The notes below the pieces were generated by a model that searched no databases, was not told where the DNA came from, and saw only the letters and a list, made by a program, of their open reading frames with translations. A DNA stretch of 17,482 nt from assembly GCA_025964935.1 (NCBI GenBank), contig JAOPXW010000140.1:1-17482 (forward strand), written 5' to 3'. Position numbers and translations under genes: made by a program. Positions 11,276-14,079 of this stretch are shown in pieces. Source of the DNA: Friedmanniella sp. GTDB lineage: Bacteria; Actinomycetota; Actinomycetes; Propionibacteriales; Propionibacteriaceae. Every line of letters starts with the position of its first letter. Positions within the stretch are counted from its first letter, which is position 1.

Positions 11276-12082
11276 TCAGCGGCGGATGTAGGAGATCAGT
11301 CGCAGCATCTCGATGTAGAGCCAGACCATGGTCACGGTCAGGCCGAAGGCACCCCGCCAGGACTCCTTGGCCGGAGCACCCATCTGGACGCCCCGCTCGA
11401 CGTAGTCGAAGTCGAGGATCAGGTTGAACACGGCGAGCACGATGGCGATGGCCGAGATGCCGATGGCCAGCGGGCTGACCGGGCCGACGAGTCCACCGCG
11501 CAGACCGCCACCCCCGGTGACCAGGCTGAAGACGAAGTTGACCAGCATCAGGGCGGCGAAGGCGATCGTCGAGATGACGACGACCTTGGTGAACTTGGCC
11601 GTCACCCGGATGTTGAAGAACTTGTACGCCGCCAGGGTGATGCCGGCCGCGAAGAACGTCGCCACCACAGCCTGGGCCACGATGCCGGAGTAGGTCGCCT
11701 CGAAGACCTTGCTGATCAGGCCGATGAAGACGCCCTCGATCGCCGCGTACGCCAACACCAGGGCCGGCGAGATGTTGCGACGGAAGGACACGAGCATGAC
11801 CACGACGAAGCCGACCAGGCCCGAGAGGACCATGCCGGGGAAGTACAGCGAGGTGGGGACCAGGTTCCAGGACGCGGCGGCGGCCAGGATCAGGACGCCC
11901 ATCGTGACGGCGGTCTTGGTCACCACGTCGTCCATGGTCATCCGACCCTCGGCCTGCTGGACGGGTGCGCCGCCGTAGCCGGACTGGTCGAACTGGCTGC
12001 CGTACGGGTTCTGCCCGTACTGGGGAGCTGCGGGTGTGAACGCGTCCTTCTTGGAGAGGATCGGGTTCGAACTACGCAACAT
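11276..12082 (-). CDS. Bax inhibitor-1/YccA family membrane protein
   Basis: This 268-aa protein has a ~48-residue soluble N-terminus rich in Tyr, Gln, Gly and Pro (PQYGQNPYGSQFDQSGYGG). It is followed by MTMDDVVTKTAVTMGVLILAA and six to seven hydrophobic helices between about residues 55 and 262. Family features include DDVVxKTA, the stretch VFIGLISKVFEATYSGIVAQA, LDFDYVERGV and the C-terminal WLYIEMLRLISYIRR. Bacterial relatives include pH-sensitive calcium-leak channels; the role in actinobacteria is not established. An AGGAGG 8 nt before the ATG at 12082 fixes the start. The leader carries a perfect 8-bp inverted repeat (12103-12120), and a strong hairpin follows the stop. It is a single-gene unit between the tRNA and cbs. 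Confidence 0.94.
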   Translation of the reverse strand: MLRSSNPILSKKDAFTPAAPQYGQNPYGSQFDQSGYGGAPVQQAEGRMTMDDVVTKTAVTMGVLILAAAASWNLVPTSLYFPGMVLSGLVGFVVVMLVSFRRNISPALVLAYAAIEGVFIGLISKVFEATYSGIVAQAVVATFFAAGITLAAYKFFNIRVTAKFTKVVVISTIAFAALMLVNFVFSLVTGGGGLRGGLVGPVSPLAIGISAIAIVLAVFNLILDFDYVERGVQMGAPAKESWRGAFGLTVTMVWLYIEMLRLISYIRR

Positions 12083-12102
12083 GGATGGGGCCTCCTGGGT
12101 CG

Positions 12103-12120
12103 TGCACCGGGACCGGTGCA
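12103..12120. promoter_or_regulatory. Perfect palindrome in the leader of the Bax inhibitor-1 gene
   Basis: TGCACCGG-GA-CCGGTGCA is a perfect 8+8 inverted repeat with a 2-nt centre. It lies between a -10-like TAGACT (12134-12129) and the AGGAGG of the gene. As DNA it fits a dimeric-repressor operator just downstream of the transcription start. As RNA a 2-nt loop is too tight, so a 6- to 7-bp hairpin is likelier. Confidence 0.5.
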
Positions 12121-12128
12121 GTTCGTAC

Positions 12129-12134
12129 AGTCTA
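12129..12134 (-). promoter_or_regulatory. -10 candidate for the Bax inhibitor-1 gene
   Basis: TAGACT on the minus strand, 46 nt before the ATG and just upstream of the palindrome. It fits TANNNT; no good -35 is seen at 16-18 nt. Confidence 0.35.
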
Positions 12135-12191
12135 GACAACGACGCCGGACCCCCGGTTGTTCCGGCCTTTGAATCATCTAAGAAGGGCCTG

Positions 12192-12211
12192 ACCAGGATG
12201 TTTGGCCTGGT
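12192..12211 (-). terminator. Hairpin overlapping the tRNA 3' end
   Basis: On the minus strand ACCAGG and CCTGGT pair across an 8-nt loop. The first arm contains the discriminator base and CCA of the tRNA. A pyrimidine-rich stretch (CCCTTCTT) follows a few bases later. It could be a weak terminator or a processing signal. Confidence 0.35.
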
Positions 12212-12283
12212 GCCCCCGGTGGGACTCGAACCCACACTGGAGCGGGTTTAAGCCGCTTGCCTCTGCCGTTGGGCTACGAGGGC
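12208..12283 (-). tRNA. tRNA with anticodon UAA (Leu by codon) but class I structure
   Basis: This 76-nt tRNA is encoded on the minus strand and includes the CCA end. The acceptor arm is GCCCTCG paired with CGGGGGC (one G-U), with discriminator A73. The D arm is GCC/GGC with a loop containing GG at the expected place. The anticodon stem is AGCGG/CCGCT with loop CTTAAAC, so U33 is followed by UAA and A37. The variable region is 5 nt (CCAGT). The T arm is GTGGG-TTCGAGT-CCCAC. All stems are intact. UAA reads UUA (leucine), but bacterial leucine tRNAs are class II with a long variable arm, which is absent here. The amino acid is therefore uncertain. A TAGGAT -10 candidate lies 22 nt upstream (12311-12306). 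The tRNA is certain; its identity is not. Confidence 0.95.
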
Positions 12284-12357: not shown

Positions 12358-14079
12358 TCAGCCGCCGGTGGGGCTGGGGCTCGGGGTGGCGACCAGCCGG
12401 GCGCGGGTCGAGGCGGGCAGCTGGGTCGGGTCCCCGGTCACGATCCGGTCCTCGACCACCACCCGCGCGTCGGGCAGGAAGTGCACCGGCTGCACCCCGG
12501 TGATCAGCCCTGTCGCGTCGTCGCGGAAGTAGAAGTAGACGTCGGCGCTGATCAGCGGCGGGGAGAAGGGCGTGCTGAAGGAGGTGATGGTCGGCTGCTT
12601 GACCCCGCCCGCCGTCCCCTGCTGCATCCCCACCGTCCAGCTGCCGTCGGCGTGCGGGATGATCCGGGGCCCGTCCTGAGCGTGGAAGTGACCCCAGGTC
12701 AGCAGTCGCAGGGGCGGGTCCGGCTGGGCCAGCACCACCGTGGCCGCCGCCGGCTGGTGGACCATCATCACGTCGACCCGGCGCAGCCGGGCGACCCCCA
12801 CCAGCCGCTCCGCCATCTGCTCCTCGGTCTCGGCACGGTCCCGCGTCCGGTTCACGGTGAAGGGGATCTGACGCTCGGGATCGTCGTCACCCAGCAGGTC
12901 CAGCCCGGCCTCGCGGACCACCCCGCCGTCGAGGACGACCATCCGGTCGGTCCGCATCTGGGTCTCGGTGATGTCGGAGTCGTGGTTGCCGGTCGCGACC
13001 ACGAACGGCACCCCGTCGGGGATCTCGGCCTCGCGGCGGATGCAGCCGCGCTCGACGGCCAGACCCTGCACCGTGTCGTCGCCGGAGCTGAGGACCAGCC
13101 GCGGGTGGGTGACCCGGGCCAGCCGGGTGATGAGCTGAGTCATGGCCTGGTTGCAGTGCAGGTCGCTGAAACCGAGCAGCATCGTCTCCCCCGCCGCCGC
13201 CTCGGGCAGCCGACCCAGCTGGCGCGACAGGCTGAGCGTGGCGTCGGCGATGTAGCCGTCCACGGCGGCCTGCTCGCGGGCCGTCAGCAGGGTGATCCCC
13301 CGTACGCCCCGGTCGAGCAGGTCGGCCAGCAGCACGCTGTCCACGGTCAGGCCGTTCAGCTGGGCGCCGGCCACCGTCACCGGGATCCGGGTGCCGGTCG
13401 GGGTGGGCGGCACCAGGATCGAGCCGACGGTCACCGCCACCACGGCCAGGTAGACCCCCGCCGTACGCCGTCGGCCGACGTTCCGCGCGACCCAGGGCGC
13501 GAGCAGCTGCCGCCGCAGCCGCCACAGGGCGAAGACCAGCAGCAGCGCCCCCTCGGCCTCCGCGGAGCGCACGACGGCGTCCTGGGCGAGCCGCTCGACG
13601 ATGCCGCGGACGGCCTCCACCGGGTCGTGGTAGAGCGCGGAATAGACGGCCAGGGTCTGCGGGGAGAAGAGCGAGCCCACCCCCTGCGAGGCGGCCCCGA
13701 CTCCGCCGACGGTGACGTCCAGGCCGATCGGGGCGACCGGGCTGGGCAGGTAGGCGTTGCCGATGGGGCCCAGGTCCACCCGCACCTCACTGGTGTAGGT
13801 GCTGGCGAAGCGGACCTGGTGCGGGCCCAGGTAGTCGTCGACGGACGCATGGCCCACCCCCCAGGCCACGGCGAACGGGGCGGCCGCGACCGTGGCGACC
13901 AGCGTGAGCAGCAGCGACCGGACGACGTTGCGGCGCACCGCAGGACCGGTCCGGGCCCGCGCGGCGTGCCGGGCCAGCACCGCCGCCACGGTGCGGAGCC
14001 GACCCGTGCCCGACCGGACCGGACGCGGCGGACCGGCTCGGAGGGGGACGTCCGGCTCGGGGGGTGCCGGGATGGCCAT
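12358..14079 (-). CDS. Membrane-anchored metallophosphoesterase
   Basis: This 573-aa protein has a basic, Pro/Arg-rich N-terminus (1-50), a membrane helix at ~54-74, and an exported segment of ~100 residues. A second hydrophobic stretch is at ~176-188, then a basic loop, and a third helix is at ~206-224. The remaining ~350 residues hold the calcineurin-like metal motifs in order: FSDLH (304-308), SSGDD (331-335), GNHD (364-367), VHQP (440-443) and GHFH (463-466). By the positive-inside rule the catalytic domain faces outside the cell. The metal ligands are present, although the last Asp of the common GDxxD form is missing. Substrate is unknown (phosphodiester, phospholipid or cell-wall phosphate). 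The ATG at 14079 is 41 nt after the deformylase stop, with a hairpin between. Ribosome site is weak. Confidence 0.88.
   Translation of the reverse strand: MAIPAPPEPDVPLRAGPPRPVRSGTGRLRTVAAVLARHAARARTGPAVRRNVVRSLLLTLVATVAAAPFAVAWGVGHASVDDYLGPHQVRFASTYTSEVRVDLGPIGNAYLPSPVAPIGLDVTVGGVGAASQGVGSLFSPQTLAVYSALYHDPVEAVRGIVERLAQDAVVRSAEAEGALLLVFALWRLRRQLLAPWVARNVGRRRTAGVYLAVVAVTVGSILVPPTPTGTRIPVTVAGAQLNGLTVDSVLLADLLDRGVRGITLLTAREQAAVDGYIADATLSLSRQLGRLPEAAAGETMLLGFSDLHCNQAMTQLITRLARVTHPRLVLSSGDDTVQGLAVERGCIRREAEIPDGVPFVVATGNHDSDITETQMRTDRMVVLDGGVVREAGLDLLGDDDPERQIPFTVNRTRDRAETEEQMAERLVGVARLRRVDVMMVHQPAAATVVLAQPDPPLRLLTWGHFHAQDGPRIIPHADGSWTVGMQQGTAGGVKQPTITSFSTPFSPPLISADVYFYFRDDATGLITGVQPVHFLPDARVVVEDRIVTGDPTQLPASTRARLVATPSPSPTGG

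Follow-up and report, generated by a model that had tools for sequence, protein, structure and literature searches.

The minus strand of the window, by which we mean the whole 17,482-nucleotide stretch of Friedmanniella sp. DNA that was analysed, very probably encodes a class I tRNA-Leu(UAA) that is charged by LeuRS and is the only dedicated decoder of UUA, with UUG probably read by wobble. According to a passage of a 2023 review, the long arm is found on tRNA-Leu and tRNA-Ser everywhere except in animal mitochondria (PMC9976931). The first-pass annotation of this DNA likewise took bacterial tRNA-Leu to be class II throughout, a premise that fails. The short form recurs across Actinomycetota.

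In the mechanism that we propose, LeuRS would read A73 and the D-arm/elbow (A14, A15-U48, G18G19, A20a), the long arm being dispensable. The LeuRS of the cell would then charge the short tRNA with leucine, and the tRNA would serve UUA alone among dedicated tRNAs and, probably, UUG by wobble. If LeuRS does not need the long arm, the short form can stand in for the class II tRNA-Leu(UAA), and it would have replaced it in the window's family and in many other actinobacterial families, with related short tRNA-Leu of other anticodons travelling in phages and tRNA arrays. Expression, charging by LeuRS and the order of evolutionary events are what we infer from the sequences.

We think that this form deserves attention for several reasons. 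In many actinobacteria no other UAA tRNA was found, and these include genomes named Mycobacterium, Corynebacterium, Nocardia, Gordonia and Microbacterium. It provides a natural test of what LeuRS truly requires, and new ground for UUA-based regulation beyond Streptomyces. For annotation it is a warning that the long arm is not a reliable mark of tRNA-Leu.

The tRNA Gene and Its Locus

A single tRNA, tRNA-Leu(taa), was found by ARAGORN on the minus strand of the window, and the Rfam tRNA model RF00005 matches it over its full length with 54.9 bits (gathering threshold 29, E 1.3e-9). These calls and the parsed sequence confirm the first description of the gene as a class I tRNA with a UAA anticodon, an encoded CCA, a CTTAAAC loop and a 5-nt variable region (Table 1). 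Its arms are GCCCTCG/CGGGGGC (acceptor stem), AGCGG-CTTAAAC-CCGCT (anticodon arm) and GTGGG-TTCGAGT-CCCAC (T-arm), with CCAGT as the variable region in the DNA. It has the UAA leucine anticodon of a class II tRNA-Leu and, with 5 nt, not the long variable arm of the canonical form. Most of the 29 related stretches, read by eye, lack a completely encoded CCA, which the window copy has.

Table 1. Features of the tRNA gene and its neighbours, in positions of the window.
Feature	Position	Strand	Basis
Class I tRNA-Leu(UAA) gene, CCA encoded	12208..12283	-	ARAGORN, Rfam, parsed sequence
Anticodon UAA (positions 34-36)	12248..12250	-	ARAGORN, parsed sequence
Anticodon loop CTTAAAC	12246-12252	-	ARAGORN, parsed sequence
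Variable region CCAGU, 5 nt, last base U48 at 12236	12236..12240	-	parsed sequence
D-arm GCC-CAACGGCAGA-GGC, stem 3 bp, loop 10 nt, tRNA-Leu type	12259..12274	-	
D-arm bases A14, A15, G18G19, A20a	12270, 12269, 12266-12267, 12264	-	
Discriminator A73	12211..12211	-	parsed sequence
Downstream neighbour gene, presumably Bax inhibitor-1-like	11276..12082	-	relatives by tblastn, E <= 1e-8
Upstream neighbour gene, presumably metallophosphoesterase-like	12358..14079	-	relatives by tblastn, E <= 1e-8

A weak point in the statement that all arms fold well is that the bare sequence, folded to minimum energy, does not give the cloverleaf. The predicted cloverleaf is supported by the covariance-model score and by paired changes that relatives show in every arm. 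Among the 210 of 228 short tRNA-Leu with the common D-arm type, two-sided changes that keep the pair occur at every stem pair save two, D pair 3 (a constant C-G) and T pair 5 (a constant G-C), which do not change.

The gene is flanked on both sides by genes on its own strand. By tblastn, a relative of the upstream gene lies on 10 of 198 other stretches bearing the short tRNA, all 10 from the same genus, and a relative of the downstream gene lies on 30 of the 198, at 0.2–7 kb from the tRNA, including records of Corynebacterium, Tsukamurella, Blastococcus and Nocardioides. With only 30 of 198 stretches, the downstream neighbour was rejected as a general mark of the short tRNA. Its recurrence would agree with a tRNA gene inherited vertically over a long time at a single position in the class, without being a proof of it.

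The Only UAA tRNA Found in the Genome

The source genome (G000) is a draft of 2.95 Mb in 417 contigs, 83.5% complete. It has three other leucine tRNAs (TAG, CAG and CAA), all long, and no second UAA tRNA among all its 30 Rfam tRNA matches. A complete genome of the same genus, in one contig (G018), has 45 tRNA matches, all of which were parsed. Its long leucine tRNAs are CAG, GAG, TAG and CAA of 84, 87, 85 and 85 nt (ARAGORN), its tRNA-Leu(UAA) is short (74 nt, ARAGORN), and no other UAA tRNA is found among the 45. The check for an additional class II tRNA-Leu(UAA), which had been advised at the outset, thus gave none in either genome, and the idea that the short tRNA is an extra UUA decoder is not supported, as it is the only UAA tRNA of G018. 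The role of sole decoder is based on one complete genome taken tRNA by tRNA and, for the others, on pattern searches; many of these genomes are incomplete, and patterns miss variants, as happened at first with G094 and G333.

Distribution in Actinomycetota and Beyond

In the order, represented by 57 genomes including the source, blastn with the window tRNA gave a match in 53, of which the weaker ones may be other tRNAs. One pattern accepting both arm lengths matched 54 of the 57. The short UAA tRNA, with a variable region of 5–10 nt, is present alone in 46 genomes, namely 30/33 of the window's family (f1), 8/8 of f3 and 8/8 of f4; the long one is present alone in eight, which are all eight genomes of family f2, and by this pattern no genome has both. 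The proposed search of relatives for the same tRNA was therefore fruitful, and the recurrence of a short tRNA with the same anticodon in the 46 genomes dismisses both chance and a sequencing error in the anticodon as its cause. Family f2 is made of genomes of 7.6–8.7 Mb of one genus, and its long UAA tRNAs were found again by a D-arm pattern that matches none of the other genomes. In family f4 the variable regions of tRNA-Leu(UAA) can be intermediate between class I and class II, with 7–10 nt (L074–L078, L083). Records named Nocardioides and Aeromicrobium hold tRNAs that resemble those of f3.

The pattern found no UAA tRNA in G001, G013 and G029, which are 93%, 83% and 71% complete. A search with another short tRNA as query gave only tRNA-Lys in G001 and nothing in G013 and G029; its sensitivity is limited, since it missed the known tRNA of G013. 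In this 83% complete draft the same tRNA is present (L013, locus 1501-1574) with the anticodon loop CTTACAC, that is, with the valine anticodon UAC, which may be a true change or an error.

At the class level, 26 of 38 genomes (own, order and class sets) have the short UAA tRNA, 24 by pattern plus G094 and G333. The long form is present in 11, all of family f6, which comprises Streptomyces-like genomes of 6–10 Mb; G260 has no UAA match and none of the 38 has both forms. The class I pattern matched 125 of 396 genomes, which includes chance rows (e.g., for G094) and is not a true count of short tRNAs. The loose class II pattern matched 293 of the 396, with many chance matches in AT-richer genomes, and its matches were used only for the 38 genomes, each read by eye. 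In this way the match of G064 was excluded as tRNA-Gly, and one extra match each in G227, G407 and G424 was discarded as not being tRNA-Leu(UAA).

Eighteen genomes behind loci from the scan of named genomes described below were also searched whole by pattern. Nine named actinobacteria pre-chosen for a short UAA tRNA (Gordonia, Nocardia, Corynebacterium, Mycobacterium sp. SM1, Microbacterium, Amycolatopsis, Aeromicrobium, Nocardioides and Pseudarthrobacter) gave no long UAA tRNA in any of the nine; a second match in Nocardia was set aside as not tRNA-like, and Thermobifida gave no pattern match for a UAA tRNA. Outside the phylum, with strings read by eye, deltaproteobacterial, planctomycete and Chloroflexaceae MAGs have only the short UAA tRNA, Acidobacteria and Microcoleus genomes have the long one, and a Rokuibacteriota MAG has both. 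An Elusimicrobia MAG has a long UAA tRNA together with a 77-nt UAA tRNA in its array. The UAA match in Cylindrospermum is the short tRNA of its array, and a cyanobacterial tRNA-Leu(UAA) bearing a group I intron would escape the pattern. As both forms are found together outside Actinomycetota, their mutual exclusion holds for the actinobacterial sets without extending to bacteria in general.

When named bacterial and archaeal genomes were scanned, at least 119 stretches proved to carry one or more short tRNA-Leu. The scan pattern fixes part of the D-arm, so that it shows breadth and not frequency or the conservation of those letters. The short genes (<=80 nt) on these stretches carry the anticodons UAA (at least 95), CAA (at least 19), UAG (at least 12), CAG (at least 7) and GAG (at least 4), next to at least four long tRNA-Leu on the same stretches. 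Among the 80 stretches listed by title, eight come from named phyla other than Actinomycetota. Short tRNAs for both UUR anticodons are present, for example, in G447 and, by matched string, in G206, G152 and G432; by matched string, five f6 genomes (G079, G163, G217, G249 and G424) combine a long UAA tRNA with a short CAA tRNA.

Dense tRNA arrays, for example those of Cylindrospermum, Microcoleus, Elusimicrobia, Chloroflexaceae and Asanoa, hold short tRNA-Leu. The array of Cylindrospermum sp. NIES-4074 (L250) contains five leucine tRNAs, all of them short. A search of 50,697 phage records gave 151 with a match (E <= 1e-3), some of them through tRNAs other than leucine ones; a short tRNA-Leu was confirmed at 14 of 15 places inspected, and the hosts are not confined to actinobacteria, with Sinorhizobium, Erwinia, Acinetobacter, Prochlorococcus, Pseudomonas, Lactobacillus and Enterococcus among them. 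Eight plasmid records match, with a short tRNA-Leu in all four that were inspected. The Gordonia phages Trax and Rabbitrun and the Rhodococcus phage REQ2 match only tRNA positions 35–74 (H104–H107), and in Trax (L130, locus 301-340) a tyrosine integrase gene lies nearby. From this partial match and this gene, the class I tRNA-Leu gene looks like an attachment site for phages.

In planctomycete, Rokuibacteriota and deltaproteobacterial MAGs (L210, L213, L234), the short tRNA-Leu(UAA) shares its stretch with a tRNA-Cys(GCA), and in L213 also with a tRNA-Gly(GCC). This grouping resembles the gly-cys-leu tRNA operon of Escherichia coli, in which the leucine tRNA is long, whereas here it is short.

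Leucine Identity Elements

The first reading had considered, as one option, an extra UUA decoder with non-standard charging. Passages of the review cited above report that E. coli LeuRS requires A73, the A15-U48 pair, G18G19 and A20a, that the sequence or folding of the long arm does not correlate with leucylation by this enzyme, that tRNA-Leu variants without the long arm and without the anticodon arm remain active, and that human mitochondrial tRNA-Leu(UUR), which has no long arm, is recognized via A73 and A14 (PMC9976931). The window tRNA holds all of these elements, A73, A14, A15-U48, G18G19 and A20a. With the known elements of E. coli LeuRS in place, there is no need to invoke non-standard charging.

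These elements are maintained in the family. Of 99 short tRNA-Leu, which are not a neutral sample because they were picked by blastn searches from the window tRNA or by patterns of the anticodon and T-loop, 98 have A15-U48, 98 have A14 and all 99 have A73; of the 37 other class I tRNAs in that set, 20 have G15-C48 and 13 A15-U48. In a larger set, A15-U48 alone is not specific, as it is also seen in 82 of 207 other class I tRNAs; combined with A73 it is present in 227 of 228 short tRNA-Leu vs 34 of the 207. The D-arm geometry of tRNA-Leu (no 13-22 pair, 7 nt after G18G19) is found in 220 of these 228, part of which were selected by a D-arm pattern, and in 21/21 long tRNA-Leu vs 14/207 other class I tRNAs. 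On the enzyme side, a single LeuRS that passes the family cut-off and extends to profile positions 840–843 was found in 29 of 30 genomes, the one exception being the draft G000, with none above the cut-off. With one LeuRS per genome, both arm classes must depend on the same enzyme.

Origin of the Short Form

The body of the short tRNA is nearest to tRNA-Lys. Leaving out the variable region, the identity of the window tRNA is 0.85 to tRNA-Lys(UUU) of G018 and 0.69 to class II tRNA-Leu, and that of the short copy of G018 is 0.82 and 0.68; the T-arm of the latter is the T-arm of the tRNA-Lys of the same genome. The D-arm differs from that of tRNA-Lys mainly by one extra nucleotide, through which a 4-bp stem becomes the 3-bp stem of the leucine type. 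A tRNA-Lys would have a UUU or CUU anticodon and a 4-bp D stem with a 13-22 pair; the window tRNA has UAA and C13/A22, and positions 13 and 22 are unpaired in 226 of 228 short tRNA-Leu.

The short form may descend from a class II tRNA-Leu(UAA) that lost its long arm and not from a class I body, a route that we regard as quite possible while giving it somewhat less than an even chance. The D-arm geometry, A15-U48 and A73 are common to class II tRNA-Leu, and the f4 variable regions of 7–10 nt look intermediate. In addition, the GAG, CAG and UAG tRNA-Leu of the Cylindrospermum array resemble class II tRNAs without the arm, and in the tree these three fall together with class II Leu, tRNA-Pro and other tRNAs, though with weak resolution. 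Against this route, the remaining body resembles tRNA-Lys more closely than it does class II tRNA-Leu. Arm deletion and descent from a Lys-like body are not told apart by a tree built from 63 columns of 80 tRNAs, the latter origin being rated by us at about one third. More tentatively, we suggest a joint picture that we would call possible and still rather doubtful: class I tRNA-Leu could be a distinct, partly mobile lineage on a tRNA-Lys-like body, which would have acquired leucine identity through a one-nucleotide insertion in the D-arm and an anticodon change, would have displaced class II tRNA-Leu(UAA) as the only decoder of UUA in much of Actinomycetota, and would spread between phyla via phages and arrays.

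UUA Codons and the Meaning of the tRNA

The initial remarks on the rarity of UUA were accurate. In 152 picked ORFs on 14 contigs of the source genome (L357–L370) there are 3 TTA among 55,887 codons. In the window, 15 ORFs were picked by a GC3 rule, a heuristic of which a few picks may be wrong, and they contain one TTA, at 12179-12181, in the upstream extension of ORF 11276-12235; read from the ATG at 12082 this ORF has none, so the complete genes of the window are free of in-frame TTA, as had been seen.

The meaning of UUA was examined in aligned LeuRS (29 loci, from 22 short-UAA and 7 long-UAA genomes) and RpoB (30 loci, from 28 and 2). A column was scored when at least 80% of the other rows had a residue in it, leaving out the rows encoded by TTA. 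Of 31 TTA codons in the short-UAA genomes, 30 fall in scorable columns; they come from 10 genomes with a short UAA tRNA and no tRNA-like match to a long one, 15 of them from the single genome G031. Two of the 28 short-UAA RpoB genomes, G148 and G256, have a long-pattern match that was left unread, and contributed zero TTA codons. Leucine is the commonest residue in 20 of the 30 columns (one tie with A). Its pooled share at TTA columns is 0.514 in LeuRS and 0.721 in RpoB, next to 0.603 and 0.719 at CTG and 0.524 and 0.736 at CTC. In these two genes and 30 codons, UUA reads as leucine where the short tRNA is the only UAA tRNA found, and no reassignment is visible.

Charging with an amino acid other than leucine, which had been raised as an option, is in our opinion very improbable. 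The likeness to tRNA-Lys(UUU), with its T-arm identity in G018, suggests lysine in the first place, and similarity alone leaves another enzyme possible. LysRS uses U35 and U36 of the anticodon, which the window tRNA lacks. In the remaining 10 of the 30 TTA columns the commonest residue is V (3), I (2), E (2), F, Y or P/A, which would suit another amino acid, and there is a human precedent of isotype conflict in a short tRNA-Leu-CAA gene, as a passage in PMC8450103 has it. Nevertheless, the TTA columns are mostly leucine columns, the D-arm has a geometry rare among other class I tRNAs, the same form comes with CAA, UAG, CAG and GAG anticodons too, and in the complete genome G018 no other tRNA has the UAA anticodon. 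A non-translational or purely regulatory tRNA, to which the near absence of UUA from the source genome would lend itself, is less probable still, as leucine identity elements are retained, the tRNA is the only one for UAA in G018, and phages and arrays carry the short form among other tRNAs. We therefore keep to leucine, which LeuRS would attach, as the probable amino acid at UUA codons.

Comparison with Known Systems

The bldA tRNA of Streptomyces is an example of the canonical bacterial class II tRNA-Leu(UAA). The window tRNA is like it in anticodon, A73, A14, A15-U48, G18G19, D-arm geometry and in being the one tRNA dedicated to a UUA codon that is very rarely used, as seen from the tRNAs of G018 and the codon counts of G000; unlike it, it has no long variable arm and its body is nearest to tRNA-Lys. 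Human mitochondrial tRNA-Leu(UUR), as described in passages of PMC9976931, is another relative in kind, with a short variable region, the reading of UUR codons, A73 and A14. Unlike the mitochondrial case, the window tRNA is bacterial, has GC-rich arms and probably shares its LeuRS with class II tRNA-Leu. The human tRNA-Leu-CAA gene, in the passage concerned (PMC8450103), joins a leucine anticodon to a short-armed body as the window tRNA does; it is a recent relative of tRNA-Met, whereas the window tRNA has leucine elements and deep conservation.

A literature search covering mainly papers outside subscription gave no account of a bacterial class I tRNA-Leu family, also in PMC6409571, and among the matches listed from PMC6297222 and from a paper on cyanobacterial tRNAs (PMC5733544) there is nothing on a short tRNA-Leu. 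Mycobacteria offer the closest cases. Three tRNA-Leu of Mycobacterium tuberculosis are named as long-looped in a passage that leaves the others open (PMC11541572). Mycobacterial tRNA arrays are regarded, in the part of PMC5966550 concerned, as horizontally transferred, and the tRNAs of a linear-plasmid array of M. avium are described as different from the chromosomal ones, variable arm included (PMC12803027); the example in that passage is a tRNA-Tyr, with no leucine tRNA, whereas the window gene is a leucine one. One short bacterial tRNA-Leu has been noted in passing, in a passage of PMC6582537 on a mycobacterial cluster, where a tRNA-Leu(TAG) with a short variable loop is given as an isoacceptor difference. 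Being short-looped and actinobacterial, it is probably of the same kind as the window tRNA. As far as these passages go, the two differ in setting: the Mycobacterium TAG tRNA belongs to a tRNA gene cluster, whereas the window form is the chromosomal, sole UAA tRNA of a widespread family.
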